Shown: positions 4,795 through 45,227, counted from the stretch's first letter. The stretch is DNA of 62,230 bases from a virus (IMGVR_UViG_3300014501_000019:1-62230); one strand, 5' to 3'. The notes: generated from the letters alone by a model not told the origin. Numbers and translations are program-made.

Positions 4795-7700
4795 TTAAAA
4801 TATAAACCACGCATTCCCCGAACTAACCAATGAAAATTCGAAATATTGAGTATTAGTCGATTGTGTACCGAGACCATTTATTAGGTCTGAACCTGCAGCA
4901 ACAATATACATATAATTTGAACTGGCATCCGACTTCACAAAATAGAAGCATCGTCCAATAAAAGCGGAAGCAGAAGGTAAATCAAAAGTTACGGTTCCAG
5001 TAGCACAATCTGCAATCAAAAATTGATCAGCGGTAAGTACGCCATAAGTTGTCGGCCCCACTTTTGTAGAAATGGCTTGCATGTTCCCAAGGCCATTGGC
5101 TCCAGTGGCTCCAGCGGCTCCCGGAGGACCTTGAATGCCGCTATTGCTTCCGCTGCCGCCGCCCGAGTAACGAAATTCCAGTTCGTCCCCGACAACCAGT
5201 CCGTCAGGCAACGTTAGAATTTCAATTTGATTACTTGGCGTGCCAGCGGCACCCACTTCCTCGTAAGCTCCGCTTTCCACATCCAAGAATTGACCGTTAA
5301 GAAATACTTCGAGAATTCCTTTACCAACGGTATAGTATGCAATACTATTAGCTTCTCTGGAATTAAAAGGTAACGTGATAATAGTGGAATTAGCTATTGG
5401 TCCATTTATAGAAACCGGTGAAACCAAAGAAGGTGGATAAGTTCCACCAGAAGCAACCACAGATATGGTTTCATCATAGGTGGGACTATTTAGTGATATC
5501 TCTAGATTTCCTAAGGCAAGATCTAGTTCTTTAATAGCTAACGTTAGATTATCACCATCATGGACGAAGTAGTTTCCGGTTCCGGTTCCGCTTTGAATTA
5601 TAGAAATTGAAAATGGAGCGCCGACATTGCCATTAGTTGCGGGAGTACTTGTGCCTGCACTGGTATTAGTTACGACAACCGCTGTAGCATTACTGGTAAA
5701 AGCGGAGAAAGTAATCGTAGCGTCGCCAACACCACTTGCCAAAGTAAGTGTGCCGGTTCCACTTCCGGGAATCGCGTTTGCATTAGTAGTATTGCTTAGA
5801 GTAACTGCTCCAGTCAATGCAATTAGGGAACCATTTACGGTTCCGCCGCTGGTATCGGTGATACTAGCTTGAGCGATGATATTGCCGTTAAAAGTTCCAG
5901 CATTTCCACTATTAATGGTAGCCGAAGATCCGACTAACCAATAAACGTTCTTAGCTAATGCGCCACCAGTCAAAGCAATTGTAGGGGTTCCACCGGCTCC
6001 AGTAGTTAGAGTAGAAGCGGCTTTAAATACGAATATATCAGTAGCACTACCATTTAATGTCACTGTTCCTGGACCGCTAGCCGCTAAATTAAATGTTCCG
6101 CTGGATTCAGAATAATAACCTGCGGTTAATGTTTGACCATCTAAAATCGGTGATATCGCAACATATCCACCATGAGCGGCTAAACTAGTATACGCCGATA
6201 AAGCATCGCTTTGTGCGATTTGAGCGAGAGTGTTACCAGCGTTTTCAGTACCTGTATAAGTACTGGGAGGAAAATTAGTAATAGAAGTAGCATTATTTGG
6301 ATAAATACCTAAATCACCAGTTAAAACCGACCCTCCACCAGTGGACCCAGTAACCGCTGTTGCACCTAAAACAGCATAAGCACTTGCAGAATTTAGTAAA
6401 CTTCCTCCAATAAGTAGAGGAGATCCGGTTCCCGTAGTAATTAGTGTAGTCCCACCAGAAATCGTCGAAACCACCGTAAATGTTTGCGAATTATTTGTAT
6501 AAGTAGCTCCTGCGGTGGCATTAGCAGAACTAGTGGTAAAGACGTATTCATTAGCATCGATCAGCGCACTAAAATCACCAAGTGGAGAAGAGTTTAAAGC
6601 AATTTCTATTTTGGTATCAACTTGTGCAGCGGTGTCCGTACTTAAAATTGGAACCAGAATTAAACCATTGGTATAAGGAATAACTGGAGGGCTTCCAACT
6701 CCATTAACGGTAAACCAAACCACATATTGCTGGGCGTTCGCACTACTATTAATCAGGAAATACTGACCGCCGGTAATCGTGGAGCCCGTACCAGCAGAAA
6801 TACTGGTAATTTGAGGTAAAGAACCAGGATTTAATGCGCTAACGTATTGTGGGCGGCTAGTACTTGCGGATGGGCTACCAATATATTGAAGAAGCTGTAG
6901 AGAAGTGGTTCCGCTAACTTCTACTGATTCTCCGTAATCCAATTCTTCAGCTAAGAAACGAATGTAGACTCTTGGACTACCACCATTATCTTCTCGTAAG
7001 AATAACCAAAACGCACCTGCAGGAACAAGAGCACGGGGAGCTATATAGATGTTACGGTTGGTAGAAGGTGAAGGTGAAGCGGTGTAGCTACCAAAAGCGT
7101 ATTGAGCGGGGGCGCCACCGACACCGGTATTATCACCAATACTGACATCAGTAGTCAAAGTAACTTGGGAAAGACTATTTACGGTTAAAATTTCGTAGTA
7201 ACCAGAAACAGCATCTGATTTTAATTTAATATAGTCGCCAGGAAGTAAGCCAGAAGTCCATGATACCGCGCCGACGCTATTAACTACAGCGGACCCACCC
7301 ACAAAAATTAGATTTGGAGTGATTGGAACATTATTGACCAAAGTAATATATGCCACTTCATCGTCGGCTAAAGTAATATTGGTGGAAGTAGGGTTGGCCG
7401 CCAAAGTATACATTAGAGAGGAACCAACTACACGAATACTAATTGGTTGATCCCAGTTAATCTGACCGGGTTGAGTAATAACGCTAGGACTATAGAAAGT
7501 AATTCCTAAGCCGGTCCCATTTAAGGTAGCAGCTTGGGACATCGTAATAGCGTATGGACCGCTGCCAGTAATAGCTAAAATAGTGGTATTGGTTGGAATA
7601 CCGGTGCCAAAAATATAATCGCCATTAGCCAATCCGGTGACGGTTGGGAGATTGGTGAGTTGGTTATTTCCTGAAGAAATATTACCAGTAGTGACTAAGA

Positions 7701-8607
7701 TAGAATCTGAATTAGGCAATATCCCGTTTGAAATTTCGCCGCTACCAGTGATTACAGTGTTGCCAAGATCTTGTAAGAGGCTTAGAATGGAAGGAACAAC
7801 GCCGCCGCCACTAGTAGAAGAACTCCAATATGGTGTGCCTTGAATCAGTAAAATCTGAGACATGACAGCATTCATCCAGTCTTTTTGACATGTGAGCTGT
7901 TTATCGCCGCCAACGAAAGGATCTACGGAATTCGAAGTAGTAGTTACTGGAGGAGGAGTACGGCCTTCTGACCAGGGATAGACGTAGTTTGGATTAGGAT
8001 TGATTCCGCCGGTTTCCAGACTAAAAAGCATCCAGCGAGCATCTGTGATAGAAACAACGTTACCGTTGCCATCAGTCGTTACGATTGCAATTGGTAAAAC
8101 ATTGGCAGCCCAGATTGAAGTGGTGATAAAAATTTGAAACGTGAGGGTTTGGGCGGCGGGAGCGATAGTGGTGATTTCAGAATTAGAAGCGGCGTCCCAA
8201 ATATACTTAGTCACATCCGTTGACGGATCAGCGAATCTATTATAATCTAGACCCACATAATTCGTACTGTTCGCCGTGAATGAACCGGTGACCACGGTAT
8301 TGGTAGCTGCATTTAGAACTTGATTTACGGTACCTGTAGGAACCTGAAAGATAGTTCCAGAAACACTGGCGGCAATATGGAGGACAGCACCTGGATCGAC
8401 TACTAGGGCTAAGCCATTGGCAGGCGCACCGATAGCTCCAGCGGTAAGGATAGAGAAACCACGAATGATGTAACCCTGTGAAGTATTAGTGAAAACTGAA
8501 GTTACTAGTGTGTCCCAGTCATTTCTGGAAGCACTTTCGACACGACGCATGTCCGAAATGTCAATTCTCTGTTCACTTAACCAATTTACTGTAGTTAGAA
8601 CGGCCAT
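4795..8607 (-). CDS. Giant virion fibre/baseplate protein with ice-binding-like (DUF3494) domain and collagen-like stretch
   Basis: A 1270-aa Thr/Ser/Gly-rich protein. Residues about 1-200 resemble a conserved phage fibre attachment region. Residues about 611-670 carry the module shared with three other proteins here (QYFLINSSANAQQYVVWF, then ILSTDTAAQVDTK). Residues about 740-940 form a full DUF3494-type ice-binding/adhesin domain: SAYAVLGATAV, LTGDLGIYP, DGQTLTAGYY, IFVFKAASTLTTGAGG, VYWLVGSSATINSG and VNGSLIALTGAVTL. This domain interrupts a small module whose halves are at about 689-732 and 949-972. A collagen-like GPPGAAGATGANG lies near residue 1160. The start is supported by AAGGA upstream, and a late-promoter-like motif lies at 8625-8635. 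Inferred role: side fibre or adhesin. Actual ice binding is not shown. Confidence 0.8.
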   Translation of the reverse strand: MAVLTTVNWLSEQRIDISDMRRVESASRNDWDTLVTSVFTNTSQGYIIRGFSILTAGAIGAPANGLALVVDPGAVLHIAASVSGTIFQVPTGTVNQVLNAATNTVVTGSFTANSTNYVGLDYNRFADPSTDVTKYIWDAASNSEITTIAPAAQTLTFQIFITTSIWAANVLPIAIVTTDGNGNVVSITDARWMLFSLETGGINPNPNYVYPWSEGRTPPPVTTTSNSVDPFVGGDKQLTCQKDWMNAVMSQILLIQGTPYWSSSTSGGGVVPSILSLLQDLGNTVITGSGEISNGILPNSDSILVTTGNISSGNNQLTNLPTVTGLANGDYIFGTGIPTNTTILAITGSGPYAITMSQAATLNGTGLGITFYSPSVITQPGQINWDQPISIRVVGSSLMYTLAANPTSTNITLADDEVAYITLVNNVPITPNLIFVGGSAVVNSVGAVSWTSGLLPGDYIKLKSDAVSGYYEILTVNSLSQVTLTTDVSIGDNTGVGGAPAQYAFGSYTASPSPSTNRNIYIAPRALVPAGAFWLFLREDNGGSPRVYIRFLAEELDYGESVEVSGTTSLQLLQYIGSPSASTSRPQYVSALNPGSLPQITSISAGTGSTITGGQYFLINSSANAQQYVVWFTVNGVGSPPVIPYTNGLILVPILSTDTAAQVDTKIEIALNSSPLGDFSALIDANEYVFTTSSANATAGATYTNNSQTFTVVSTISGGTTLITTGTGSPLLIGGSLLNSASAYAVLGATAVTGSTGGGSVLTGDLGIYPNNATSITNFPPSTYTGTENAGNTLAQIAQSDALSAYTSLAAHGGYVAISPILDGQTLTAGYYSESSGTFNLAASGPGTVTLNGSATDIFVFKAASTLTTGAGGTPTIALTGGALAKNVYWLVGSSATINSGNAGTFNGNIIAQASITDTSGGTVNGSLIALTGAVTLSNTTNANAIPGSGTGTLTLASGVGDATITFSAFTSNATAVVVTNTSAGTSTPATNGNVGAPFSISIIQSGTGTGNYFVHDGDNLTLAIKELDLALGNLEISLNSPTYDETISVVASGGTYPPSLVSPVSINGPIANSTIITLPFNSREANSIAYYTVGKGILEVFLNGQFLDVESGAYEEVGAAGTPSNQIEILTLPDGLVVGDELEFRYSGGGSGSNSGIQGPPGAAGATGANGLGNMQAISTKVGPTTYGVLTADQFLIADCATGTVTFDLPSASAFIGRCFYFVKSDASSNYMYIVAAGSDLINGLGTQSTNTQYFEFSLVSSGNAWFIF

Positions 8608-12116: not shown

Positions 12117-12860
12117 ATGGGCGCGTTTATAGATCTAACTGGACAAAAATTTGGAAAATTGACTGTTTTAAGAAATCTCACTAAAAGAACGAAAAACAAT
12201 AGTGGCCCTACTGTATGGTTATGCCAATGTGATTGTGGAATCGTGAAGAATATTAGATATTCGGGATTGGTTAGAGGTTCTTCTAGTAGCTGTGGTTCCC
12301 ATACCTGTAGACCTAATTTTAAAGACTTAACGGGACAAAAATTTGAGAGACTTACGGTTATAAAAATGAGCACCAAAAAAGGTAAGAGAGGTTCTGCATA
12401 TTGGGAATGCGTATGCGATTGTGGAAACCTTGTAACTATATTTGGAGCTAGCATGTCATGCGGCAAAACGAGATCTTGTGGATGCGTAAAACATTCAAAA
12501 CAATACGAAACAATAAAGAATCTGCATTATAGAATGCACCTAATTCACGCAAAAGAAAACAATGTTGTCAGCTATCTTTCAAAAGAAGAATATGTGCAAA
12601 TAGCTTCACAACGTTGTCATTATTGCAACCTTATCGATATCAAGAAAAACAATCGCACCAAAGTCACAATAGAATTAAATGGGGTAGATAGAAAAAACAA
12701 TGAACTTTACTACAAAATAGAAAATGCACTACCTTGTTGTAAGAATTGTAATTTTATGAAAAGAAATACTCCATATGGGATATTTGTGTCTAGTATTAAA
12801 AGTATCTATTTAAATATCTTTAAGAAAGATCTAGAGGATAAAAAAGAATCTGACCAATAA
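12117..12860 (+). CDS. HNH endonuclease with duplicated zinc-ribbon domain
   Basis: A 247-aa protein. The N-terminal DNA-binding module occurs twice. Copy 1 (about 5-65) has DLTGQKFGKLTVL, WLCQCDCG and two later Cys. Copy 2 (about 68-125) has DLTGQKFERLTVI, WECVCDCG and SCGC. The C-terminal core has CHYCN, NGVDRKNNELYYKI and CCKNCNFMKR. In related proteins here the core reads DRID, so the second Asp is changed to Asn. Its 3' end overlaps the 3' end of the convergent structural gene by 41 bp, so the cassette has grown into the virion operon. Confidence 0.82.
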   Translation: MGAFIDLTGQKFGKLTVLRNLTKRTKNNSGPTVWLCQCDCGIVKNIRYSGLVRGSSSSCGSHTCRPNFKDLTGQKFERLTVIKMSTKKGKRGSAYWECVCDCGNLVTIFGASMSCGKTRSCGCVKHSKQYETIKNLHYRMHLIHAKENNVVSYLSKEEYVQIASQRCHYCNLIDIKKNNRTKVTIELNGVDRKNNELYYKIENALPCCKNCNFMKRNTPYGIFVSSIKSIYLNIFKKDLEDKKESDQ

Positions 12861-13261: not shown

Positions 13262-15238
13262 TTAGGGGCCGTATACATAAATTACCTCATCGGTTCCAGG
13301 AATAGGGCTTTGCCAATTTCCCAAACCTATGCTATTGGGATACAAAATTGTATATATAACAGTAATTCCCGCAGCGGCCACGGAGTCAATAATTCCTTGC
13401 GCCCAAACTCTACCACTGGCAGTATCTGTCAAATATGGTTGATAGTAAGATCCATCACTAGGTAATGTAATAGGGGAATCTTGCGTAACCAACATTACAG
13501 ACGATCCTCCTGGATGATCTTGTTGAATGAAATATGCGGGCGAAATAAGTAGGCTTCCAGGACTCGGGGTGGCAATATAAGGAATAGGGCCTTCTTGATA
13601 CTCAGTCCCATAACCAAGTATGATGTATCCGCTACTATTAGGAAATCCTACCGAACTATCAACCAAAATTACATGACTAGTTTCTCCATTAACATCTTCT
13701 GTCAACGTGGTACTAGCGCCGCCCACGACAAATCCTTGAGTCGTATCAAATATGTAAGGCCCGAGTGTATTAGGAGTTGAAGGACCGGCATCCGCAACAG
13801 TAGACGCTACAACATTGGTCATGGTAACCAAATTGTCTACGATCGTATATGTAAGCGAAGGAATTGCGGTTTCAATAGCCAATAAACCTTTAGCCGCTAC
13901 TTCAGCAGCGGTATCCGTACTCAAAATATTCACTTCTATCCCAGTAAATCCTGCGGGAGCCGGATCGCTGTTTCCACCATTAACATTAAGCCAAACATAA
14001 TAAAAGTAAGTAGATCCTAAGTCATCAATTAGAAAATATTCTGCTGGTCCCGTTGCTACTGGATAAAAAGACCAAGGAAATGGTGGAGGTGGCTCAGAAG
14101 GGATCATTCCAGGTGGAAATATGATTTGAACCACTGGAGATTCTGTGACACCGTGAAGATGAGCGCTTCCAATCCTACTTCTTTCAATAACTTGAGTTGT
14201 GGCAGGCATGAAGATCTGAAGTATGTTCTTTTCAGTATTATAAACTGCTCCATAGTATTGTTTACTTAAAATGGTTTCTCTTACCGGCGTAAAAAAAGAA
14301 ACCGCGCTATCAGTACCTTGAACCACAATTCCAGGGCTACCAGTCGGATTACTAATTTGAAAGTAAGCGATCCCAACAGCTCCACCCTGAGCACTTACGA
14401 TAGTAAAACTTCCTTCGTTATTACTGCTAGCGAATCCACCGCCATAAATATTGACGTACTGTAAGGGCTGGACATCTCCTAAGTTAGGATTTCCTCCACC
14501 AGTCCACGTATATCTTAGATAGCCACCAGGCTGAATGCTAATAGTCCATTGAGTGCTGAAGTTACCGCCAGCTGGCACACTTGCGGGAAAAAATAAAACA
14601 TTTTGTGCGCGACCGCCTAGAACCGTTACCGAAGACGAAGCTCCAATAGTAGAAGAAAGGAGTTCTACATAGTTTCCGTTTCCATCATTATTGGCAATTG
14701 CGCTTCCAGTGACATTTAAATTACTGAGACCAACAGAAATTACATTCGCTACTTCTTGCGCGGTTGCTGCTCCAATATTAGTAAATTGGTCGGTGTTAAA
14801 AGTAATAGTGCTGGTATTAGCACCATCAAAATTAATAATTAAAGTATCTCCATCCTGTAGAGCATACGGTTCAAAGTTTTGAGCACTATCCGTTGCTTTA
14901 ACAAAGACATCGCCGAAAACAGCGTCTAGGATGTTATTAATGAGATCCCTGACTTGTTTCCTGTTCTTAACTTGGATACCAATGGTGCGAAAAATTTCAT
15001 CTGATAAGCCAGTTATAGGGTCTCTAGTTATACCATAGTTGGCTAATAGAAGATCTAAATAATTGCCTTGGGCAGTCACTATATAAAGACTGTCATTTAC
15101 GGCTTGTACAGAATTGACAAGATAGGCGGAAGAGGTAGCTAATGCGTTGAGAACAGCTTGAACTCCAGGTCCTTTGAAATAGGGATTAAGATATTTCCTT
15201 AATCTTACAGCTTCTGCGGCTTGTGTTGTAACTGCCAT
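13262..15238 (-). CDS. Baseplate protein, tail protein I-like with extra beta modules
   Basis: A 658-aa protein. The N-terminal 110 residues (YLNPYFKGPGVQAVLNALA, then DSLYIVTAQGNYLDLLLANYG) resemble the start of wedge proteins that pair with baseplate J. Residues about 396-450 carry the module shared with three other virion proteins here (AEYFLIDDL, then DPAPAGFTGIEVNILSTD). The C-terminal 130 residues are Ser/Gly-rich. It begins 1 nt after the stop of the 2410-aa baseplate J gene. J followed by I is the usual myovirus order, which supports the call. Confidence 0.68.
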   Translation of the reverse strand: MAVTTQAAEAVRLRKYLNPYFKGPGVQAVLNALATSSAYLVNSVQAVNDSLYIVTAQGNYLDLLLANYGITRDPITGLSDEIFRTIGIQVKNRKQVRDLINNILDAVFGDVFVKATDSAQNFEPYALQDGDTLIINFDGANTSTITFNTDQFTNIGAATAQEVANVISVGLSNLNVTGSAIANNDGNGNYVELLSSTIGASSSVTVLGGRAQNVLFFPASVPAGGNFSTQWTISIQPGGYLRYTWTGGGNPNLGDVQPLQYVNIYGGGFASSNNEGSFTIVSAQGGAVGIAYFQISNPTGSPGIVVQGTDSAVSFFTPVRETILSKQYYGAVYNTEKNILQIFMPATTQVIERSRIGSAHLHGVTESPVVQIIFPPGMIPSEPPPPFPWSFYPVATGPAEYFLIDDLGSTYFYYVWLNVNGGNSDPAPAGFTGIEVNILSTDTAAEVAAKGLLAIETAIPSLTYTIVDNLVTMTNVVASTVADAGPSTPNTLGPYIFDTTQGFVVGGASTTLTEDVNGETSHVILVDSSVGFPNSSGYIILGYGTEYQEGPIPYIATPSPGSLLISPAYFIQQDHPGGSSVMLVTQDSPITLPSDGSYYQPYLTDTASGRVWAQGIIDSVAAAGITVIYTILYPNSIGLGNWQSPIPGTDEVIYVYGP

Positions 15239-15239
15239 C

Positions 15240-18200
15240 TTAACTTCCTATCAATGACACGGAAATATCAGACACCTGATTGACAATGAACGCCTTTTCT
15301 CCAGTTACAAGTTGAATCTCGTCTTGTGCTAGATCATAAGTTGGCGATGTAAGAACAACAGAAGTCACTCCAGGGATCGCCCTAACCGTCTCTACAATAC
15401 TGCTGCAGTCAATTGATTGGCCTAGGGGGTTTGCCTGAATAAGTGCATACACACTCGATTGAATCTGAGAAGTTATTTGCGCGAAACTAACACCAATATT
15501 TGTCCTGATAGCCAAAGCGATTTGAATCCTCTTGAGAAGAGGTTCACGGATAAAAATATTTGTTCCCGCTGCTTCCACACCTGGATAGGTGATTGCGTCA
15601 CGGGGATCTCCATAGATAACCCGATTTGCTTGTCCAATCAAACCGGTATCATAATTGTAACTATCGATTCCAGTTCTAACAGTTGTTGGGAAATTTAGTT
15701 TCCCAAGTGATACCATTACTACGCCAGCCGATAAGTCGATTTTATCGTATTGCGCTGAAGTGTTAAAAATGATATTGTTGAAATTAGAGACTCCTAATTG
15801 TGGTGAAACATACGCAACTTGTTTATAACCGGTGTACGCAGTTCCTTCTTGAACCGACAGGGATACATAGTTAGCACCTAGACTGGTTCCAAACTGTTGA
15901 CCGATGACTCCAGAAACAACGATAGTATCGGGATTTAATACTTGCAGAATTTTGTAAGTTCCAGCATTTCCGATTCCAAGAATGGATCCGTTAACACTCA
16001 GCTTATCTCCTGGAACCGTTGCGTCATACGGAAAGAATTGGATTTGCGGTCTATTAACAGTGAAAGTCACAGAAGAAATTCCGGTTTGATTCACTCCTGT
16101 GGGATTCACAACATTTAAAAATGTTTGTTGACCTAATTGCGTGATAATGAAATTGAAAGCAGCTGGCATCGAAACATCTACTGGAGAATTAGTAGTTGCC
16201 GGAACTGTTGCTGTCACCGTCACCACATTGCTACTTACGGAAGAAGTCATTGCGGTCAAATGACCATTAATTGCTGTGTAGGTCTCATTAGCAACAGTTG
16301 TAGAGCTATCACTGCTATTGATACTTACTTCAATACCAGTGAAACCAGCAGGAGCGGGATCAGTATTGCTACCACCCAAAACATTATACCAAATATAATA
16401 TTTGTTAGCGTTACCACCGTTGTAAATTTCAAAATATTCTCCTGGACCCGTATCGGAAAACGTGATTCCCGATGGCATAATGAGTTGAACAATCTGTTGC
16501 TGTGCTGGTCCAGAACCTGTTACGATAAAATTGCCTTGATTAGCTGGAAGACTTGTGAATGCGGAGAAGGTGATCGTTGTATCACCGGTCCCAGAAGTTT
16601 TAGTTAATGTTCCAGAAGCTGTTGGGGCACCGGTTCCAATAGTTGTGAGGGTAGTTCCTGCTGCTATAGTGCTAGATACGGTAAATGTTTGACCATTGTT
16701 TATGTACGTCGCTCCAACAGTTGCATTGGCAGAAGTTACGGTAAAAGTATATTCTGTTTCAGTAAAACCAGCACCAAAAGTAACAACGTCTCCTGGAAGC
16801 AACACTCCTAAAGTCGGTGCAGTTCCTGTGCCGGTATAAACCAGACTAGCGGTTCCACCTACTACGGTTACATTGAAAGTTGTAGTAGAATCATAGCCCG
16901 TAGTAATTGGATTTACGACGCAAGTAACTTCTTCTTCAATTAAATCAGTAGCTAATGGGAAAGACAGGGCTTCTGGATTTTCATACCAAACACTGTCGTG
17001 ATTGCTACGAATGACTCTGTACTCACCTTGATTGAGAGGGGAGAAAGGAGAAGAGAGAATCATCGTATCACCTTCGGAAACCGAAGAAGTGGCTGTGAAC
17101 GCACCAGCTGAAATAGTGGTTCCATTTTCTACAACCGCTAAAGGATTATCTACACTGAAAGATGAACCATTAAGTGCAACGGCGGATACAAAGAATGTAC
17201 CATCGTTTGCAGAATTAGCGGCACCCGTAATAGTAATTAGATCTCCAATACTAAGATCAGCAAAGTTTGCGGTTCCCGTGGGCTCTGGCGTGTAAGAAGG
17301 AACAGTGATAGTTGTAGGTTCACTTAAGGTTACTGCAGCTGTTAAAGCGATTAGTGATCCATTAACTGTGCCGCCCAAAGTATTCGTAATACTGGCTTCG
17401 GCAATAATATTACCGTTAAATGTGCCAGCATTTCCACTGTTAATGGTGGCACTACTGCCAACTACCCAATAAACATTGGCCGCAATTGCACCGCCAGTTA
17501 AAGCAATCGTAGCAACTCCACCTGCGCCGGTAGTAAGGGTACTAGGTACTTGGAAAACAAATATGTCTGTTACACTACCATTGATAGTAAATGTTCCAGG
17601 ACCAGATTGAGCTAGATGTACATCCCCAGAAGGAAAGGTATAATAACCAGCAGTAACTGTATGCCCATCGAGAGCATTATAACCTAGATTAGTCGAAGAA
17701 TGGCTATTAAGAGTTGTATAAGCGCTCATGGCATCGGTTTGAGCGTTATCAGCAGCGGTATTGCCGAGATTAGTGGTTCCGGTTACTGTGAAAGCGCCTG
17801 TTACCGTAGATCCAGGATATTCGCCTAAATCTCCATTTACAACACTGGTTCCAACGCTATTAGTGATTGCTGAAGCCGCTAAAATACCATAAGGAGCGGC
17901 TCTTCCTAGAAAAGTGGCAGGAGGCTGAGGAGGATTAGCCACGACAGTATAAGTACCAGTAGAAGAAATGTCTACTGTGAATCCGCCAGTATCGTTAATG
18001 TTGACTACCGAATTGAATCCAGGAGAGGTTCCAACGCCATTCCAACTTAAACAAGCAAGTACACCTTGTTTTTCAATTCTAAAAGTTCTTCCTTCAACAC
18101 TAACATTTTTACGAGGTCCACCGAAATAAAGTTGATTGCCTTCTTGATTGAGTAGTGTTACCGTAGATTCACCAGCGACAGGAGTATTACTTAGGACAGT

Positions 18201-21200
18201 TACACTGGTATTTACACCGATTCCCGTGTCTTTATTTTGGAAGTTTTGAGCTTGCAATCTAAACCATTGATCGCTCATCATGGCTTGACTGGCGATATTA
18301 TTCGCAGAAACCACCATTTCGTTGTTTCCAAGTAATTCGCCAGAAGTTAAGACCGGTACCGTGTATTCATTTCCGCTGCCACCAACGATTTGAATGCTCC
18401 CTACAGATCCAATGGTATTAGTTGCAAGTTGTAGTTTGGTTCCACGATCACTGGTTTCCACGGTCCCAACGGTCGTGAAGCCTGTAACCGCCAAGACGTT
18501 CCAAAAATCTTTGACTTGATCCATGGTTGTTGGAATCAATCTAATAGTTTCTCCACTGGTAAAGAAACTATAGCCCGCAGCGCTTGGATAAGTTAATGGA
18601 GTTTTGAGCGTAAATTGTGGACTTCCAGTAACATTCGAACTTGCGATCCAATTAATTCCGTCAAAGAAATAATAAGACGGAGTTGTGAAACCGCTGTTTT
18701 CATAGGTGCTTAGAACAATATTTCCAGCGCCGGTTCCATTGACAACGGTCGTAGTAAAATATTGACTTAGATTTGCATTTACGTAAGCGTTAATAGCGTT
18801 AGCGGTAGTTGCAGTTGCAGTGAAGAAACTGATGCCATTAAGAACACTAGTTACAGCATTACTTTGTGCTACCGCTGTTCCACTTGGAACTGGTACGCTG
18901 AAAGATGTTGCAGTTGGAGTAATAGTAGTAGATACTCTAAAGGTGCCCGTATCTTTAATGTTAAACCCAGTCGAAGGAAGGATGGTAACATATTCGCCAC
19001 CACTCAATGTAAGATTTGGATTGGTTCCAACGGTGTTCCAGGTGTAAGTTACTTGATCGACTCCAGTTATAGGAGTGTTTGGGGTTATAGTAATATTCCA
19101 TTGTGTATTAGCGGCAATAGTGGAAGTAATGGGGTTACCAGAAAGCAAGCTAATTACAACCGCGACTTCATTATTTGGTGTTACTGTGGAATTTATGGGT
19201 TGATTGGCCGAAGTTGGATATACATAAGATACACTAATATTTTCGCCACTTCTACCAAAAAGTGCGGATCTATAAAGAAGAGAAGTATTTGAAGCCGCAC
19301 TGGAAACCACAAATTTGGCCTGCATCAAAACTTTATAATTGGCGAAAAAATCAGTTGGTGTGGTAAAAACGCTATTAAATGTAGGAACATTGAAATTAGT
19401 AGCAAAGCTCGCAGTGGCTCCAGCAGCAGTATCATAAGCATCAAAACTATAGTTATTAAGAGGAAATATACTGTTAACTAAAGCTGTTCTATAAAGAGGC
19501 ATCGTATAAGCTTCGCCTACAGTATTATTATCAACAATGGCAACTACGGTGTCATTATAACCAAAATCTAAGGGATTTGCTACGTAGAATCTGTCATTGA
19601 CCCTTAATCGTCTAACGTCTGGATACACTGGTAAGATAGTTACAGCTGTCCCAGCTAAAGTAGACATTTGAACCGTTTCTTCAGCCGGTTGTTCGTCGTC
19701 TAGAATAGTTCCTGGAACCACCCCATAAGGATGTAAAAAGTTAATAAGTTCATTTGGATCGAATTGAGACATTGATTGCGATGAAGAAAGACTGGTAAGA
19801 TAGCTATCAATGGGCTCGGCATAACTATCGGCGGTAAAATGAGAATGGAAAAACAATGGAAGTTCGGCTTGAGTTGCTTCGGTTTCATAGAATGCGATCA
19901 GTGCGTCTTGGCTAATATTGGTTTCACCACTAGTGAATCCCATCAACGCACCAAATGAATCCTGAGTAACTACGAAAATTTGACCTTCAGTGTTGAAAGT
20001 ATTGCTAACAACGGTAATATTAGTGTTGTCGAAAACTCCAAAAGTAAGTTGATCAGTTTGAAGTTGAAGTTCGGCGGCAATAACTTGCAAAGTTTTAGTG
20101 CCCGTAGTGACTCTAAATTTTTGTGGAACATTGGCGGTCCTGACAACTACGAAGCCTTGAATGAAGGTGGCGTTTGAGACTGGAGTAACTAAACCGTATT
20201 CGGCAACCGTAACTTCGATATCCAAAGTAGAACCGGTGACAGCGTGAACTCTACCTTCTATGTCATCGGTGGAAGGAATTTCAGCGGACCAAACAATAAC
20301 GTAATCGCCTGGAATTACATTGACAAAAGCCGTAGAGGAATTACTAGTATATCTAATGATGTTTGGGCTAACCTTAGAAACACTAAGTAAGGAACCGCTT
20401 TGAATTGTTGGAATAATTACAGCATCGGTATCTATGGAAATCCAAACATGCGCGTTTTCAGTCAAAACCACCATACCAGTACTAACATTACCGGCTTCAA
20501 TATGTGCCTGCGTGATAAGAGTTCCAGCGGAAAGCGTATCCAGTTTAACAAGAGCGGTGTCTAATTGGATTTGAGCGGTATTTCTATCCAAAATATAATC
20601 GGACTGCACGCCAGTTGAAGTGAGATCGATATTACTGATGACACCTTTTGAGATAAGGGAAGTGGGGTTTGAAATCGTATTGACTACTGTAACTTGAGCC
20701 CTATCGATTGGACCTAAATTAGAAGTGATTTCAATAGTGGATCCAACGATAGAAGCAGTGATTCCGGTAATGTTGGAATTAAGAACGTTCACCCAAGATT
20801 GTAAACTATTTGAAGCAGAAAGTGTGGTATAAGTTCCTTCTGCTACGAACATTGCGTTGGTCAGAGTGTAGGTAATTGGAGCGGTCCCATCAACTGCTAA
20901 ACTTAGAGTATCACCAGAGGCTAAAGTATTAGACCATTGGCCTTGTGAGAGTGTGAAAATAGAAGCCGTGGTACCATCCTCGGTTAATAGGATTCCATTT
21001 TTATAAAGTCTTAAAGTTTCCGCCTTCTGAGAAGGAAATTGAAGGATGGTATTGGCATCAATAACGTTGGTAGTTGCGGGAGTAGTGATTTGAATAACAT
21101 TGGTAATCTCATCTTCGGGACGAATAACAACATAGGTTCCACCGCCAGCAGTGACGGCTTCAAAATTTAGAACCGTGTCGCCATTGATAGAAGCACAAAC

Positions 21201-22472
21201 TTCGTAAGCAGTTGCAGATCCGGGATTAGCGAAATCTGAGGCTTGAAAAGTATGGTATTGAGTGATATTCCCAACTACTACACCGAGAACTTCGCCGCCG
21301 TTAAGGGCAAAGGGTTCGGCAGCAACGGTTTGAAGAAGAGCTTTGGTAACACTGGTTTGTTGGCCGCCTGTAACTAATTGGAAGAACTTCTCACCACCTA
21401 AAGCACTGTTTACGATAGCCTCGATTGGGACACCAGTATGAGTTGCTTCTAGGATACCGCCATCATCGATATAAACTATAGTATTTGAAGAATTGTTAAG
21501 AACATCGGTGCTGACAATAGTATTTGAACTATTTGGATCTTGTACGCCTTGTAATGCCGATTCGATAGCGGTTACCGTCCCGAGTCCAGTAGAAGCGAGT
21601 GCATTTTGAACTCTAACTCGAAGTTGGTTGTCTGTCTCAAGGTCTTGGCCGGTAGTAATGGAAAGAGGATTTGTAACAGAAGCATTTGGTAGCCCTGAAG
21701 GATTTCCAGAGAATTGAGAAATTGCGCCTCCGGGAACATTACCAGCGGCTCCAGGAAGTAAGGCGGTGATTGGTATGTTAGAAGCAACAACCTCACCGTC
21801 AAGAATAATCCCTTGTTGTGTAACCGAATACTGAATAGTAGGAGTGGTGCCGATGCCAGGAGAAACAACGATAGTGTTGACTGGGACCGTTCTTACGCCA
21901 CCTTGAGACAAGATTACGTTTTCTCCTAAATTGTGATATTTAGTTGTTACGGAAGAAAGTGTAATTTGCCAAAATGAACCAATTGGAGTCGGGGCAACGG
22001 TATAGGCAAGTGGTCCTTCAACGTCTACAGTGCCTCTACCAATATAAACCGCTCCTGTTGCGGGGAACAAAGAAGCGTTCGAAACGTATATAATATTAGA
22101 ACCTATATTTGGTGGCTGAATTCCAGCATAAATAGTCGTAGAAATTTTTTGAAAGCTTAGATCGGTGACGGTGACAAAACCGGTAGCTGTTAAAGCGGGG
22201 AGGGGCGGAACATCATACTCGATCGCCAGATTTTGCAAACTTGGTCCAGTTGCCCTCGATAAATTAAAGTCACGAAGGATTTGAAATACGTCTCCGCTTG
22301 AACGACTCACCATCAAAGCGACCAATTTGAAAAAAGAAACGTTCGCACTTCCTACATTAAGATCGTTTGTGTTGATGCTAGAACTATAACTAGAAAGCAT
22401 CTGCCCCAAGATCTCTTCAAAACTTTGAGGTTGAGGCAACGACGAACTTGGTGGTGTGGGACTAGTGGCCAT
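15240..22472 (-). CDS. Giant baseplate J-like wedge protein with inserted ice-binding-like domain
   Basis: A 2410-aa protein, many times the usual length of phage baseplate J proteins (roughly 300-400 aa in P2-type phages). The J signature is at residues about 276-311 (DLETDNQLRVRVQNALAST, then GTVTAIESALQGV). The J-type C-terminus is at about 2309-2376 (LLKRIQIALAIRTN, then SIVETVRAIPGVTSVVL). Between them is a long row of beta modules, including a DUF3494-type domain at about 1520-1716 (VNGDLGEYPGS, DGHTVTAGYY, VYWVVGSSATINSG), an uninterrupted ANATVGATY module at about 1910-1972 and the EYFEIYNGG module at about 2005-2067. GGAG lies 8 nt before the ATG and a late-promoter motif 15 nt upstream. 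Inferred role: baseplate wedge that also carries surface-exposed adhesive domains. Confidence 0.85.
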   Translation of the reverse strand: MATSPTPPSSSLPQPQSFEEILGQMLSSYSSSINTNDLNVGSANVSFFKLVALMVSRSSGDVFQILRDFNLSRATGPSLQNLAIEYDVPPLPALTATGFVTVTDLSFQKISTTIYAGIQPPNIGSNIIYVSNASLFPATGAVYIGRGTVDVEGPLAYTVAPTPIGSFWQITLSSVTTKYHNLGENVILSQGGVRTVPVNTIVVSPGIGTTPTIQYSVTQQGIILDGEVVASNIPITALLPGAAGNVPGGAISQFSGNPSGLPNASVTNPLSITTGQDLETDNQLRVRVQNALASTGLGTVTAIESALQGVQDPNSSNTIVSTDVLNNSSNTIVYIDDGGILEATHTGVPIEAIVNSALGGEKFFQLVTGGQQTSVTKALLQTVAAEPFALNGGEVLGVVVGNITQYHTFQASDFANPGSATAYEVCASINGDTVLNFEAVTAGGGTYVVIRPEDEITNVIQITTPATTNVIDANTILQFPSQKAETLRLYKNGILLTEDGTTASIFTLSQGQWSNTLASGDTLSLAVDGTAPITYTLTNAMFVAEGTYTTLSASNSLQSWVNVLNSNITGITASIVGSTIEITSNLGPIDRAQVTVVNTISNPTSLISKGVISNIDLTSTGVQSDYILDRNTAQIQLDTALVKLDTLSAGTLITQAHIEAGNVSTGMVVLTENAHVWISIDTDAVIIPTIQSGSLLSVSKVSPNIIRYTSNSSTAFVNVIPGDYVIVWSAEIPSTDDIEGRVHAVTGSTLDIEVTVAEYGLVTPVSNATFIQGFVVVRTANVPQKFRVTTGTKTLQVIAAELQLQTDQLTFGVFDNTNITVVSNTFNTEGQIFVVTQDSFGALMGFTSGETNISQDALIAFYETEATQAELPLFFHSHFTADSYAEPIDSYLTSLSSSQSMSQFDPNELINFLHPYGVVPGTILDDEQPAEETVQMSTLAGTAVTILPVYPDVRRLRVNDRFYVANPLDFGYNDTVVAIVDNNTVGEAYTMPLYRTALVNSIFPLNNYSFDAYDTAAGATASFATNFNVPTFNSVFTTPTDFFANYKVLMQAKFVVSSAASNTSLLYRSALFGRSGENISVSYVYPTSANQPINSTVTPNNEVAVVISLLSGNPITSTIAANTQWNITITPNTPITGVDQVTYTWNTVGTNPNLTLSGGEYVTILPSTGFNIKDTGTFRVSTTITPTATSFSVPVPSGTAVAQSNAVTSVLNGISFFTATATTANAINAYVNANLSQYFTTTVVNGTGAGNIVLSTYENSGFTTPSYYFFDGINWIASSNVTGSPQFTLKTPLTYPSAAGYSFFTSGETIRLIPTTMDQVKDFWNVLAVTGFTTVGTVETSDRGTKLQLATNTIGSVGSIQIVGGSGNEYTVPVLTSGELLGNNEMVVSANNIASQAMMSDQWFRLQAQNFQNKDTGIGVNTSVTVLSNTPVAGESTVTLLNQEGNQLYFGGPRKNVSVEGRTFRIEKQGVLACLSWNGVGTSPGFNSVVNINDTGGFTVDISSTGTYTVVANPPQPPATFLGRAAPYGILAASAITNSVGTSVVNGDLGEYPGSTVTGAFTVTGTTNLGNTAADNAQTDAMSAYTTLNSHSSTNLGYNALDGHTVTAGYYTFPSGDVHLAQSGPGTFTINGSVTDIFVFQVPSTLTTGAGGVATIALTGGAIAANVYWVVGSSATINSGNAGTFNGNIIAEASITNTLGGTVNGSLIALTAAVTLSEPTTITVPSYTPEPTGTANFADLSIGDLITITGAANSANDGTFFVSAVALNGSSFSVDNPLAVVENGTTISAGAFTATSSVSEGDTMILSSPFSPLNQGEYRVIRSNHDSVWYENPEALSFPLATDLIEEEVTCVVNPITTGYDSTTTFNVTVVGGTASLVYTGTGTAPTLGVLLPGDVVTFGAGFTETEYTFTVTSANATVGATYINNGQTFTVSSTIAAGTTLTTIGTGAPTASGTLTKTSGTGDTTITFSAFTSLPANQGNFIVTGSGPAQQQIVQLIMPSGITFSDTGPGEYFEIYNGGNANKYYIWYNVLGGSNTDPAPAGFTGIEVSINSSDSSTTVANETYTAINGHLTAMTSSVSSNVVTVTATVPATTNSPVDVSMPAAFNFIITQLGQQTFLNVVNPTGVNQTGISSVTFTVNRPQIQFFPYDATVPGDKLSVNGSILGIGNAGTYKILQVLNPDTIVVSGVIGQQFGTSLGANYVSLSVQEGTAYTGYKQVAYVSPQLGVSNFNNIIFNTSAQYDKIDLSAGVVMVSLGKLNFPTTVRTGIDSYNYDTGLIGQANRVIYGDPRDAITYPGVEAAGTNIFIREPLLKRIQIALAIRTNIGVSFAQITSQIQSSVYALIQANPLGQSIDCSSIVETVRAIPGVTSVVLTSPTYDLAQDEIQLVTGEKAFIVNQVSDISVSLIGS

Positions 22473-23520: not shown

Positions 23521-26205
23521 TTAAGCCGTAATAGGCAACTGGAATCCAATCGGAAACGTGCCACTCTGTCCTGCAAGTTGCACACCTAAGTTAATCCCCA
23601 AACTTGGTGGACTTATTGTCACTTGCAACCCGGATACCCCCTGGAACCTACTGTCTTGAGTAACCATGTTAACTATTTGATTATAAATGGTTTTTGCGTC
23701 TATATCTGAAACCATTGTACCGACTTTCACTCCTAGTCCAAAATTTTGATCGAGCAAACTACTATTCAATGGAGTTCCAAATTTAATCGCTAAGGCCTGG
23801 ACAAGATTCGTAATTCCTGCCGCCAACCTAAAGTCACCCGTATTAGTAAGTGCTAAATCTCCTTGAGGTGTCAGGAGCCAATCCACCTTCGAGAGACCCA
23901 CGAGATCTACGTTTGCCACCGACGCAGGTATATTTATTTGATCATCGGGAGCCGCTGGAAGATCGCTCGGCATCCAAATAACTTGCTGGCTGTTTACGGT
24001 CCCTGGTAAATACGCTTGGATATACGCTTGATCTGTTAACGTAAATACATCCAAATTAGCCAAACCATCCAAAGTGATCAAAAAAGTGGTCTGTGATAGC
24101 GGAACAATGTTAATGATAGTTCTAGCAGTGGCCATTTGTGTGTTAGAATATAGGAAAACTGTCTGACCAATATAAAGATCGGTGTCGCTTCCAATAACGA
24201 TGTTGCGTCCATCGGCGTTGCTAAGTAGTTGATATTGAAAGCCATTTTCATCGATATAAGGTTCTCTTAATTGATTTAATGTGGCAATTTCCAACCACCT
24301 TTGAGGATCTCCCAAGTAGCGCATAGCTATCTGCTCGATAGTCAATCCATATGGCACCGGCACTTGTATCTTACTGTTTGGTATAGAGAATTCAATCTGC
24401 GAAGTAGCCGCCAATGCATTCACGTATTGCATACTATTTAAAATCTGTTGATCATCCAATTGATTCGTAGCAGTAAGGACATCGTATGCTTGTACCAATT
24501 CATAAAAACTTTGCAAAATATCGAACTCATCCAAAGTCATCGGTTCAGATCTAACGATTGGCGCGGGTTGATTAAACAACGTGCTATAATAAGCATTCCC
24601 TGCACCAAACGAATTAGATAACTGCGTAGCTAATGTCAATATGGTCGCTTGCATGGTTTTCAAATTGGCAACCGTAAATTCGCTGACGTTAGTTAATTCA
24701 GTTTGCAACGCGTTTTGCTGCTGACTGTTTAAGGCCAAACTATTTACTGGAACCTGGCTAAAAAGTAATGGATATTGCAAAGGATTAGTAAACACAGCAT
24801 TGCTTGGATTTAAAGTAGATGATGCCGCAGCATTTGGACCTAATACACCGCTTGCCACTGTGGTCGTAGATAAGCCTTCATTTGTCGAAGTTAGCGCTAT
24901 AATAGCAGCAATAGCGGCCAAAGTAGTTACGTCTGTTGCCGCAGCTCCAAATAAATTATTTGGCTGTATGGTGGAAATAAAATTTGAAATAGTACTTTGA
25001 GTATCACCAACTAATTGCGCGGGAAGATCATTTACCGCAAGTGCTACTCCAGCAAGTTGCTTGACAAAAATTCCAGTTTGTCTGATAATGTTTAGGATAT
25101 TATCAACATCTGATCTTACGGCACCAATTAGAGCCGTTGCTGCGGCTGCCGTATTTTGAGCGGCTTGAATAGTGTTTAAAATTTGCTGCAGAATTCCAGG
25201 AGAAAGCGGAGTTACTTGAAGTGGGACCGTAGTTGTGGCGTTATTGAGATCGATTCTACGCCATGCTTTCAACTGAAGATTGTAATTAATCTCCATGGGC
25301 CTATTGACATTTTCATCCCACGTAAATCCAACAGGTGTTACTACAAAACTTTGTTTCTGTTTTGGAATATCGAAAACTAAACGGTAGCCAGCATTTGCGG
25401 GATTTCTCTTGGCTTCCGCGTACTGTTCTAGAAATTGCTGAAGCATGATTGTTTGATAGTATCCGGTGCCAGTTCCTCCATATTCGGGATCACTGGGATT
25501 TGAGATTACCGAATTTGCTGGTCCACTTTTATCGGGTCTAATAGTTACAGGTTTATTGGCTAGGGTTCCAGTCAATGCGGCATTGACTACGGTTTGAAAC
25601 TGACTCGCTACATTCTGTGCGGCTGCGATCGTTCCTCCAAAAATAGATTGCAAGGCACTAGGAGTTCCTGGAGGCTGTACAATAGCAGGCCTACCAGGCC
25701 AAACACCAAAGGTTCCTCGAACCACAATATTTTTAAATCTGACGCCAGAATGTTCTTCTAATACACCGCGTAATGTAGCGCTAGTATTAATAGCAAAAAC
25801 ATCTGAAATAGAAAGTTGTTGAGGCGTAATAGGTAAAGTAAAAGTCCAAGCCTGTGTCATGGGGATAAAAGCTAAAGTTCCATTCCCCAATGGATTAATC
25901 TGAACATTGGAAATAAGATTTCCGTTAACTACTTTATTGCCGTTCGCCGTATCCACTACCACAAGTCTATATGGAACCAATTTATCCCAGAGAGTTGGAT
26001 CTGGAATATAGTATGGAAAAAACGCGCTCTTAGTTGGTAAAGCCGAACTGGTTTGTCCTATTTGAGGTCCTGGGTTAGCCGTTCCAGCCCAAGGAAGATT
26101 ACCGGTATTGGGGATACTAGCAGATGTCAAATTGAGCCCAAGGTTAAGAGGGCCTAATCCAAGGTTTGAAGAGGGTAATGTGGTTGGAACGCCTAAACCT
26201 GCCAT
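23521..26205 (-). CDS. Baseplate protein with LysM and gp25-like domains
   Basis: An 894-aa protein combining roles that are separate genes in many phages. Residues about 130-330 (TLPITPQQLSISDVFAINTS, then FVVTPVGFTWDENVNRP) resemble tail-tube-end or LysM baseplate adaptor proteins. Residues about 340-600 are Ala-rich helices. A LysM-type segment lies near 612-660 (VPYGLTIEQIAMRYLGDPQRW). The last 120 residues (LLTPQGDLALTNTGDFRL, then LGVKVGTMVSD) resemble the gp25/GpW wedge family. It lies just upstream of baseplate J, as gp25 does in many myoviruses. The ATG is 3 nt from a GACAATCTTAT motif and lacks a ribosome site. Confidence 0.75.
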   Translation of the reverse strand: MAGLGVPTTLPSSNLGLGPLNLGLNLTSASIPNTGNLPWAGTANPGPQIGQTSSALPTKSAFFPYYIPDPTLWDKLVPYRLVVVDTANGNKVVNGNLISNVQINPLGNGTLAFIPMTQAWTFTLPITPQQLSISDVFAINTSATLRGVLEEHSGVRFKNIVVRGTFGVWPGRPAIVQPPGTPSALQSIFGGTIAAAQNVASQFQTVVNAALTGTLANKPVTIRPDKSGPANSVISNPSDPEYGGTGTGYYQTIMLQQFLEQYAEAKRNPANAGYRLVFDIPKQKQSFVVTPVGFTWDENVNRPMEINYNLQLKAWRRIDLNNATTTVPLQVTPLSPGILQQILNTIQAAQNTAAAATALIGAVRSDVDNILNIIRQTGIFVKQLAGVALAVNDLPAQLVGDTQSTISNFISTIQPNNLFGAAATDVTTLAAIAAIIALTSTNEGLSTTTVASGVLGPNAAASSTLNPSNAVFTNPLQYPLLFSQVPVNSLALNSQQQNALQTELTNVSEFTVANLKTMQATILTLATQLSNSFGAGNAYYSTLFNQPAPIVRSEPMTLDEFDILQSFYELVQAYDVLTATNQLDDQQILNSMQYVNALAATSQIEFSIPNSKIQVPVPYGLTIEQIAMRYLGDPQRWLEIATLNQLREPYIDENGFQYQLLSNADGRNIVIGSDTDLYIGQTVFLYSNTQMATARTIINIVPLSQTTFLITLDGLANLDVFTLTDQAYIQAYLPGTVNSQQVIWMPSDLPAAPDDQINIPASVANVDLVGLSKVDWLLTPQGDLALTNTGDFRLAAGITNLVQALAIKFGTPLNSSLLDQNFGLGVKVGTMVSDIDAKTIYNQIVNMVTQDSRFQGVSGLQVTISPPSLGINLGVQLAGQSGTFPIGFQLPITA

Positions 26206-36456: not shown

Positions 36457-36467
36457 GGCAATCTTAT
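36457..36467 (+). promoter_or_regulatory. GGCAATCTTAT motif, 4 nt from ATG
   Basis: Same core as the late-promoter-like motif, on the plus strand, followed by CTGT and the ATG at 36472. The spacing is the same as at 10657 and 26209. It is the only case before an endonuclease, so it could be chance. Confidence 0.35.
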
Positions 36468-36471
36468 CTGT

Positions 36472-42938: not shown

Positions 42939-43538
42939 TCAGAAACCGTTGGGGTTGTCAACACTTTTCTTCTTTTTGCCAGAAAGATCTTTCTTAGTTT
43001 TATTCTTAGTTTTATTCTTATGACAAGTATAGCAAAGAATTTGATGATTAGATAGTCCTAATGACTCTCCACCATTACAAATAGCTAAAATATGATCCAC
43101 TTCTGGAGCGCGACTTTTCTCACATTTATCTTTAAGTCTTTTCAAATACCACCATTCGAGGAGAGATAAGTCCTGATCCTCACCTTTACTAGCAGGATAG
43201 CGTTCTTTCTCTCTTCTCAGGACGGCCTTCATAATGGGTTTGTAATCAAATTGGCAGTCAGCACATTTCCAGTCTTGTTTAATCAGAAGAAACTTAAGAG
43301 AATTTTCTTTTTGTGGATAGCTCCAAGCCATAGCTGAATCGGAGCATAGATTAGAACAATACTTTTGATTACCATGAAAAATCTCTACTTCAGCACACCA
43401 AGCACAAAGTCTCTTAGGTTTACCTTTAGCATTAAGCTCGTCCAATTTGATTGGATGGATACAAGAAAGATTATAGGATCTTTCCTTTATGGATTTAGTT
43501 AATGCTATCACTTTGGGATTGCCAGAAGGTTTAAACAT
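42939..43538 (-). CDS. HNH endonuclease (McrA-like core)
   Basis: A 199-aa protein. N-terminal Cys pairs CAWC and CSNLC and then WKCADCQFDY suggest zinc binding. The core PEVDHILAICNGG, NHQILCYTCHKNKT is a classical HNH motif with C-x2-C zinc ligands. The Lys-rich tail may bind DNA. TGATATAGT ends 5 nt before the ATG, so the gene has its own leaderless-type promoter. Likely a homing or restriction-type nuclease. Confidence 0.85.
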   Translation of the reverse strand: MFKPSGNPKVIALTKSIKERSYNLSCIHPIKLDELNAKGKPKRLCAWCAEVEIFHGNQKYCSNLCSDSAMAWSYPQKENSLKFLLIKQDWKCADCQFDYKPIMKAVLRREKERYPASKGEDQDLSLLEWWYLKRLKDKCEKSRAPEVDHILAICNGGESLGLSNHQILCYTCHKNKTKNKTKKDLSGKKKKSVDNPNGF

Positions 43539-43616: not shown

Positions 43617-45227
43617 TTAAGTAATTACGTAACTCGCAGAACCAACCTGAGAGGTAGCGTATCCAGACAATACGGCAATTGCATTTACGGTCTCGGAAGC
43701 GGATACGGAGATTGCTCCAGTATATAGAGTGCTATATACCGTAGGAGTCGTTCCATTGGTAGTATAGTAAATAGCGGCTCCGGGAGTGCCCGAGGTGATC
43801 GTAACCGTCTGTGTAGAAGGGTAGGATCCACCAACAGGACTGAAAGCGGGGCGACCTACTTGAGAAGAAACAGGAGCTAATACTGTAGTAACAACTGCAC
43901 CACTGGCACTAGAGAATGCTTCAGCCATAACCGGCGTTTCAGGACCACTCGAAGGAGCGATAACGTTCGCGGCAGCACTAAGAGTAACGGCTCCAGTCAA
44001 AGCGATTAATGAACCATTCACGGTTCCACCAAGAGTATCGGTGATACTGGCTTGAGCGATGATGTTACCTTGAAAGGTGCCAGCGCTCCCTGAATTGATG
44101 GTTGCAGATGAACCAACGATCCAGTAGATGTTGGCAGAAGTAGCCCCGTTTTCAAGAGTCATGACAGGAACACCTCCAGCACCAGTAGTAAGTGTGGAAG
44201 CAGTATATAGGATATACGTGCCTGCACCATTAAAAGTTAGGGTTCCTGTAGCAGAAGTAGCTAGATGTGCAGCTCCTCCGGTGAACTGATAATTCCCAGG
44301 TGTGAGTGTTTGACCGTCTAGAGTTGCTGAAATCGTGGTACCAGCTAGACCAAGAGTTTGTTTGGAGGTAAACGAAGCTTGTGCTGCGGTTTGGGCAGAA
44401 GAAGCTACGCCGTCCGCGATATGCTCGCCACCAGTATAAGTACCAGGAGGGAAGCCAGTAATACTCGTCCCAGGATAGATGCCAAGATCTCCAGTAAGAA
44501 CGCTTGAACCCGTATTGGTGACTGCAGAGGCGCCCAAGATAGCGAAGGCACCCATTCCACCGCTAGAGGCGTTCATGGCTGCAACTGTCTTAGTGGCAAC
44601 TGCTGAAGCCGAATCACTGCTAAGAATGGTTACTTCGATCCCGGTAAAGCCAGCTGGAGCTGGGTCGGTATTTGAACCGCCTGAAACATTATACCAAATG
44701 TAGTAAGAATTAGAATTACCGCCAGTAAATATTTCAAAGTACTCACCTGCACCAGTAGATGCGAAGGCAGAACCTGCGGGGAAAGTCATCAAATCCCACT
44801 GCTGACGAGCGGGACCTTGAAATTGAACAGATGAACTAAATCCGGAAGGCATCGTTACATTAACTGGCGAGCCGTTAAAATACGCATTTGGAAAAGAGTT
44901 GGGCACCGTTGGGGGTAAAAAGTTTGGAAAAATAGGAGCTTGGACACCGCCAGCTAGAGCGTTAAGCAGTTCTTTTAGACTAGCATCTGGAAGACTGAAG
45001 CCGTCTTTTACAAACTGAACGTCAAGAGGACTAAGTGCGTAGGTTCCAAGAATACAGGCTTGAAAATTACTGGCCATACTAGGACGACCAAGACAGTCGG
45101 TCAGTCTAGTAAAATCAATGGAAGAAAGTGTGGTTTCTTGGGCAATGGCGGAAACGAGGTTGAGACCTGAAGTGGTGCTGCCCATTCCGCTGATAAGATA
45201 AGCTTGAGTAGTTGAAGATAAAGACAT
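43617..45227 (-). CDS. Stand-alone virion protein with ice-binding-like (DUF3494) and chitobiase-type C-terminal domains
   Basis: A 536-aa protein. Residues about 159-215 carry the EYFEIFTGG...DPAPAGFTGIEV module. Residues about 224-414 are a DUF3494-type domain (AFAILGASAVTNTG, LTGDLGIYPG, GFPPGTYTGGEH, LDGQTLTPGNY, IYWIVGSSATINSG, VNGSLIALTGAVTL). Residues about 455-536 (FSPVGGSYPSTQTVTI, IYYTTNGTTPTVYS, SQVGSASYVI) match the CHB_HEX_C beta-sandwich seen next to carbohydrate-active domains. The gene has its own late-promoter motif, AAGGAG ribosome site and terminator, so it is expressed alone, 10 kb from the tail genes. Inferred role: capsid or tail decoration with adhesive function. Confidence 0.8.
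   Translation of the reverse strand: MSLSSTTQAYLISGMGSTTSGLNLVSAIAQETTLSSIDFTRLTDCLGRPSMASNFQACILGTYALSPLDVQFVKDGFSLPDASLKELLNALAGGVQAPIFPNFLPPTVPNSFPNAYFNGSPVNVTMPSGFSSSVQFQGPARQQWDLMTFPAGSAFASTGAGEYFEIFTGGNSNSYYIWYNVSGGSNTDPAPAGFTGIEVTILSSDSASAVATKTVAAMNASSGGMGAFAILGASAVTNTGSSVLTGDLGIYPGTSITGFPPGTYTGGEHIADGVASSAQTAAQASFTSKQTLGLAGTTISATLDGQTLTPGNYQFTGGAAHLATSATGTLTFNGAGTYILYTASTLTTGAGGVPVMTLENGATSANIYWIVGSSATINSGSAGTFQGNIIAQASITDTLGGTVNGSLIALTGAVTLSAAANVIAPSSGPETPVMAEAFSSASGAVVTTVLAPVSSQVGRPAFSPVGGSYPSTQTVTITSGTPGAAIYYTTNGTTPTVYSTLYTGAISVSASETVNAIAVLSGYATSQVGSASYVIT

Follow-up and report, generated by a model that had tools for sequence, protein, structure and literature searches.

The DUF3494 fold (Pfam PF11999, Ice_binding) is known mainly from stand-alone antifreeze proteins, the type 1 ice-binding proteins such as EfcIBP (PDB 6eio), AnpIBP (7bwx), SfIBP (6bg8) and FfIBP (4nu2). 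Among viruses, three PF11999 genes in Arctic vOTUs have been read as auxiliary metabolic genes for host cryoprotection (PMC11515562), and one antifreeze protein has been described in Southern Ocean viruses (PMC8407431). S-SKS1, which the Arctic study names as a source of homologues, gave no PF11999 match by profile search. Phage tail sheaths are known to carry additional domains, mostly Ig-like, for which adhesion or stabilising roles have been proposed (PMC9230969). In our search of openly available journal papers we found no description of PF11999 as a virion domain. The preliminary description of the present DNA knew of no phage system built in this way; genes of the family as such had already been reported in phage contigs (PMC11515562).

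Here we analyse one stretch of viral DNA, an IMG/VR record of 62,230 bases that we call the window, in which three proteins, of 1270, 2410 and 536 amino acids, each contain a DUF3494 domain (Table 1). The phage domains share with the type 1 ice-binding proteins the profile, the fold and the helix beside the solenoid, and the two groups have in common a TSIT-type loop and the columns of the B-face. Unlike those proteins, they are embedded as inserts in tail proteins instead of standing alone, they are permuted in relatives, and their b4 loop (SGNAG) is longer than that of AnpIBP or EfcIBP. The form of a secreted, surface-anchored or stand-alone cellular-type protein is not what we find, two of the three domains lying inside phage tail proteins. 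The Arctic genes (PMC11515562) belong to the same Pfam family and likewise occur in viral contigs, but the window's domains lie inside structural tail proteins, several per genome. With the additional Ig-like sheath domains (PMC9230969) the phage domains share a sporadic presence outside the conserved tail core and a proposed role in adhesion; they differ in being beta-solenoids, in belonging to a family with characterised ice-binding members, and in being circularly permuted in the sheath.

The three segments are genuine DUF3494 domains. At the places where the preliminary description had put them, they match PF11999 with E-values of 7e-35, 7e-33 and 2e-31, far above the gathering cut-off of 28.7 bits; the matches span positions 1-205/206 of the 208-position profile, and all three were recovered again by a search directly on the window DNA. 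Chance or low complexity as a source of the domains is ruled out by these scores, by the fold, and by the same search in 14 control genomes, which returned zero PF11999 matches. The domains are 55-66% identical to one another. As to the motifs said to be common to them, STLTTGAGG, VGSSATINSG and GTVNGSLIALT-AVTLS are identical in all three, whereas the N-terminal ones (LTGDLGIYPN, VNGDLGEYPG, LTGDLGIYPG) are looser than the proposed LTGDLG-YPG.

When the 536-aa protein is compared with the PDB by phmmer, it matches the ice-binding proteins 6eio (2e-28) and 7bwx (4e-23). Structure prediction for the 1270-aa copy gave the beta-solenoid with a helix alongside that had been anticipated: the long helix lies at segment residues 209-226 amid the strands, with pLDDT of about 90-97, and the fold of the 2410-aa and 536-aa copies is assigned from sequence. 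Against the PDB, the model has 31 matches at E<=0.001, all of them ice-binding or antifreeze proteins, with target-normalised TM-scores of 0.68-0.88 for single-domain targets. Of the outcomes by which the preliminary description could have been refuted computationally, neither occurred: PF11999 matches, and the predicted fold is not a different one. The only viral predicted structures (in BFVD) that match at E<=0.001 are DUF3494 proteins of Hyperionvirus, a giant virus that infects eukaryotes and has no kinship with tailed phages.

Table 1. Features of the window, and of sheath genes in related contigs, that bear on the DUF3494 domains.
Feature	Position	Strand	Basis or remark
1270-aa tail protein (probably fibre or fibre-adaptor) with DUF3494	4795..8607	-	ORF call, PF11999; no PHROG
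Inserted cassette of the 1270-aa protein, ~residues 682-976: DUF3494 nested in TSANATAGATYTNN...TLTLASGVGDATITFSAF module	5680..6564	-	empty-site alignment, tblastn
DUF3494, 1270-aa protein residues 746-941, canonical order	5785..6372	-	PF11999 E 6.8e-35, 121 bits
658-aa conserved tail-cluster protein	13262..15238	-	70-76% identity to G020/G039 counterparts
2410-aa baseplate wedge protein (gpJ/gp6-like) with DUF3494	15240..22472	-	phrog_6 E 3.6e-25; PF04865 E 4e-11
DUF3494, 2410-aa protein residues 1530-1719, canonical order	17316..17885	-	PF11999 E 7.3e-33, 114 bits
Empty site after residue 920 of the 2410-aa protein	19701..19713	.	filled in G020 and G039 by an extra DUF3494 cassette
Baseplate_J match, residues 194-296 of the 2410-aa protein	21585..21893	-	Pfam
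Baseplate protein, 894 aa, phrog_975	23521..26205	-	30% identity to Myxococcus phage Mx1 baseplate protein
Baseplate assembly protein-like, 288 aa	28531..29397	-	phrog_9992, weak match
536-aa protein, made up of an unassigned N-terminal domain, a beta module, DUF3494 and CHB_HEX_C_1	43617..45227	-	Pfam and sequence
CHB_HEX_C_1 / Fn3-associated domain, residues 464-528 of the 536-aa protein	43644..43838	-	Pfam
DUF3494, 536-aa protein residues 230-419, canonical order	43971..44540	-	PF11999 E 1.7e-31, 110 bits; PDB 6eio E 2e-28
Sheath with permuted DUF3494 in one fixed loop	L005:1811-4651, L091:6127-8877, L104:13889-16663, L113:686-3550

The window, whose tail cluster lies on the minus strand, seems to be about one third of a contractile-tail phage of 160-175 kb. 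Scans of viral contigs by domain and by protein returned many related phages, all uncultured, whose contigs reach 177 kb; in two of these, G020 (166 kb) and G039 (162 kb), the core tail genes are about 57-76% identical to the window's and the gene order is largely collinear. The window contains a J-type gene and, within its 62,230 bases, no tail sheath gene; G020 and G039, as close relatives, have a sheath gene. Among named phages, Myxococcus phage Mx1 (169.6 kb) comes closest: its baseplate protein is 30% identical to the window's, and its sheath is 42% identical to that of a relative. A profile search of the Mx1 genome gave no PF11999. The Mx1 sheath (L194:2225-5086, 953 aa) has some 240 residues beyond the 715-aa sheaths, with no PF11999 match; they represent another, unassigned sheath domain.

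The 2410-aa protein had been described as a baseplate wedge, and its matches to PHROG 6 (E 4e-25) and Baseplate_J (E 4e-11) bear this out. Empty-site alignment and tblastn reveal an extra DUF3494 copy in the baseplate protein of G020 and G039, at a site that is empty in the window. The window's own baseplate copy is 79% identical to the fibre copy of L024 and 78% identical to the baseplate copy of L100, even though in the latter case the host proteins are only about 30% identical outside the domain. The N-terminus of the 1270-aa protein, found in 19 of the 34 records searched (the window's own included), belongs to a protein that lies within the tail gene cluster, has a collagen-like GPPGAAGATGANG stretch and has no PHROG match; we infer that it is a fibre. 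Its orthologues in G020 and G039 are without the cassette: about 295 residues are missing between GDFSA and VVVTNTSAGT, and these residues consist of a common tail module (TSANATAGATYTNN...GVGDATITFSAF) with DUF3494 enclosed in it. Adjoining the 1270-aa protein is a repetitive, Ser/Thr/Gly-rich protein of 1340 aa (window 32-4054); neither Pfam nor PHROG gave a match to it, and it probably forms a tail fibre.

In relatives, a PF11999-bearing protein of roughly 900-990 aa matches PHROG 279, the tail sheath. By the order of the profile, its DUF3494 is circularly permuted, with positions ~43-204 coming first and ~1-60 following. A set of sheaths gathered by a scan with the sheath C-terminus, and thus blind to DUF3494, contains sheaths of about 715 aa without the domain and of about 917 aa with it. 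The insertion is always at the same hairpin (FSIRVNGGA.xVVTLSS / AELxxELNxLLPAGI), is permuted in every complete case, and falls outside the conserved structural core, preceding the main phrog_279 match at 489-912. Tandem domains, considered as an alternative to permutation, are ruled out: about 200 aa are added, the halves of the profile are swapped, and the domain-free sheaths measure about 715 aa. One of the sheaths, as modelled by AlphaFold (mean pLDDT 83.6, the domain mostly above 85), matches sheaths, and its matches to ice-binding proteins are partial (about 143-187 columns, target TM 0.43-0.61), which is what a sequential alignment should give for a permutant. DUF3494 is carried by 25 of the 69 sheaths on the sheath tree, 8 of the 25 having been recruited by the domain, and its distribution requires 8 parsimony changes versus 21 with shuffled labels. 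The domain is therefore passed on within clades, but has also been acquired or lost repeatedly; close kin of the L005, L091, L104 and L113 sheaths include domain-free ones of about 715 aa. Other cassettes occupy the same regions; the sheaths of L136 and L134, for example, have the TSANATAGATYTNN module there.

The 536-aa protein lies some 20 kb from the tail cluster, where its neighbours are genes for HNH endonuclease, a phosphoesterase and ribonucleotide reductase, and has no PHROG match. All of the tested relatives that match its N-terminal domain carry DUF3494, some phages carry DUF3494 only in the homologue of this protein, and two versions of it among relatives have a permuted domain. It looks like a dedicated DUF3494 carrier and is presumably a virion protein. 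In one homologue (L008:5389-6960), the permuted DUF3494 interrupts a FEIQNxGNANRYAVWFNVPGG...GGYTGIEV module, the counterpart of which is intact in the window. Further proteins of 380-470 aa with a canonical DUF3494 occur in related contigs (L029, L034, L035, L040, L051, L055, L056 and L063).

Compared across homologues, the sequences show that DUF3494 comes and goes as an entire cassette, at fixed loop positions of the baseplate, fibre and sheath proteins. For each of the three, close homologues with and without the domain differ cleanly at the same sites. Domain trees intermix the copies from baseplate, fibre and other proteins, and pairs of sheath and baseplate proteins with less than 40% flank identity have domains that still average 58% identity. 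This shuffling, together with the empty sites, makes DUF3494 a mobile cassette in phage tail proteins. Where a record has both a sheath and a J gene, the domain is present in J in 7/7 records with a domain-bearing sheath and 0/10 without (Fisher 5e-5), a comparison biased by kinship and by ascertainment, as records were recruited partly by the domain; among sheath-recruited records only, the counts are 2/2 versus 0/10 (p 0.015). In six records of 155-177 kb without the sheath domain, there is no PF11999 anywhere. The INPHARED named phages gave no tblastn match with three different DUF3494 queries, and contigs of cellular genomes gave a single one, in a Geobacteraceae MAG (43%), which is uninformative on origin.

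Known members of the family bind ice through the solvent-facing B-face. Its positions have been defined for AnpIBP (PMC7277481), and we transferred them by alignment to 47 phage domains. Outward B-face positions in these domains are 93% Thr/Ser/Ala/Gly, with Thr in column 4 of strands b1, b6, b5 and b4 in 46-47 of the 47. In AnpIBP, changing S153 and T156 to Tyr cut activity to 17%; the equivalent of S153 is Ser in 46/47 phage domains and that of T156 is Thr in 47/47. Mean entropy at the outward B positions is 0.53, as against 1.17 in the rest of the domain (p 5e-5) and 1.54 at the outward positions of the preceding strand face (p 1e-5), whose outward residues are an inferred assignment. With the other alternation, which selects residues that should face inward, the difference between the B-face and the neighbouring face vanishes, as expected, because these are core positions. 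Permuted sheath copies retain the same B-face. In the window (536-, 1270- and 2410-aa proteins, in that order), strand b1 reads SAVTNT/TAVTGS/SAITNS, b6 GAVTLS/GAVTLS/AAVTLS and b5 ASITDT/ASITDT/ASITNT, while b4 reads SSATI and b3 STLTTG. This is close to the B-face of ice-binding EfcIBP, and because the Thr/Ser-rich face resembles that of EfcIBP, its retention need not be a phage-specific adaptation.

Most likely, the DUF3494 domains of the window and its relatives are accessory modules that the tail displays and that serve adhesion. Several adhesive patches per particle, as the preliminary description had supposed, are plausible, and the relatives with a sheath domain go further. We see about an even chance that they act as plug-in surface-binding modules on the contractile tail, with the B-face binding ice or the ice-water boundary. 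Each domain would point outward with its flat, Thr/Ser/Ala/Gly-rich B-face free, and an assembled virion would show numerous copies, at least six on each baseplate and, in relatives with the domain in their sheath, one on every sheath subunit. The B-face, as in characterised members of the family, would bind ice or ordered water at the ice-water boundary. The particle might then be held at ice surfaces or in liquid veins where cold-adapted hosts gather, or might alternatively benefit in being spared freeze-thaw damage, and the tail fibres would find the receptor as usual. The fuller version of this proposal is more tentative, falling somewhat short of an even chance: an ice-adhesive virion with tens to hundreds of domains on baseplate, fibres and sheath, and with a permutant evolved for the sheath hairpin, docks on ice and meets its cold-adapted hosts there. 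If true, there are phages equipped to cling to ice, which would position viruses in frozen habitats and is, so far as we know, undescribed. The fold would serve phages as a module that is mobile, insertable and circularly permuted, a point of interest for the question of how new surface functions arise on contractile tails.

Ice is the best-supported candidate ligand, and a cell-surface glycan is its main rival. The conservation of the B-face would also be expected if the flat face bound another ligand, and the same metagenomes yielded both relatives that have the domain and relatives that lack it, so that there is no habitat contrast to support ice. It is possible, if on the doubtful side, that the mobile tail domains bind cell-surface or matrix polysaccharide and provide weak, multivalent, reversible adhesion to the host before receptor binding, as Ig-like domains would. 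Accessory beta domains of sheaths have been proposed to act in this way (PMC9230969); DUF3494 sits where such domains do, within beta-module loops and next to CHB_HEX/Fn3-like modules; its shuffling among fibre, baseplate and sheath fits the Ig-like pattern; and the relatives may include phages from habitats that never freeze. But in the literature examined we found no glycan-binding member of DUF3494, the B-face appears to have none of the aromatic or charged groups that carbohydrate sites usually show, and its ice-type Thr columns are strongly retained.

The domain could also be a structural or passenger module without a ligand, a rigid spacer that stiffens or cements the tail or is tolerated in a loop. 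Clean gain and loss, with no harm to be seen in the neighbours, and the presence of other cassettes in the same regions would suit such a module. We nonetheless think it unlikely, given that conservation is far higher at the exposed positions of the B-face than at exposed positions elsewhere and that tail proteins of several kinds contain this one domain; the conservation of the B-face speaks against a neutral passenger and fits ice binding, though another flat ligand could account for it too. Finally, the domains might serve host cryoprotection as auxiliary genes, for which the Arctic contigs provide a precedent (PMC11515562). The 536-aa protein, outside the tail cluster and with a homologue that is the sole carrier in several relatives, would be the obvious candidate, but no signal peptide is evident in it by eye and it has tail-type beta modules that are also present in the baseplate protein. 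Since two of the three copies form part of tail proteins of 1270 and 2410 aa, and the sheaths of relatives contain the domain too, we consider this reading very improbable. Taken together, the evidence suggests a virion that can stick to ice or to another surface.

Two further features of the window's gene content may be recorded. HNH, endonuclease VII-like and other endonuclease genes are unusually numerous (4038-4877, 12117-12860, 22500-23498, 27713-28528, 36451-37176, 42939-43538, 45466-46005 and 53226-53900); several sit between tail genes, and they are possibly free-standing homing endonucleases. The 541-aa ribonucleotide reductase (39370-40995) is 90% identical to that of G039, as against 57-76% for most tail genes, a difference that suggests a recent exchange of this gene; among named phages, it is close to that of Tunturiibacter phage Tunturi_3.
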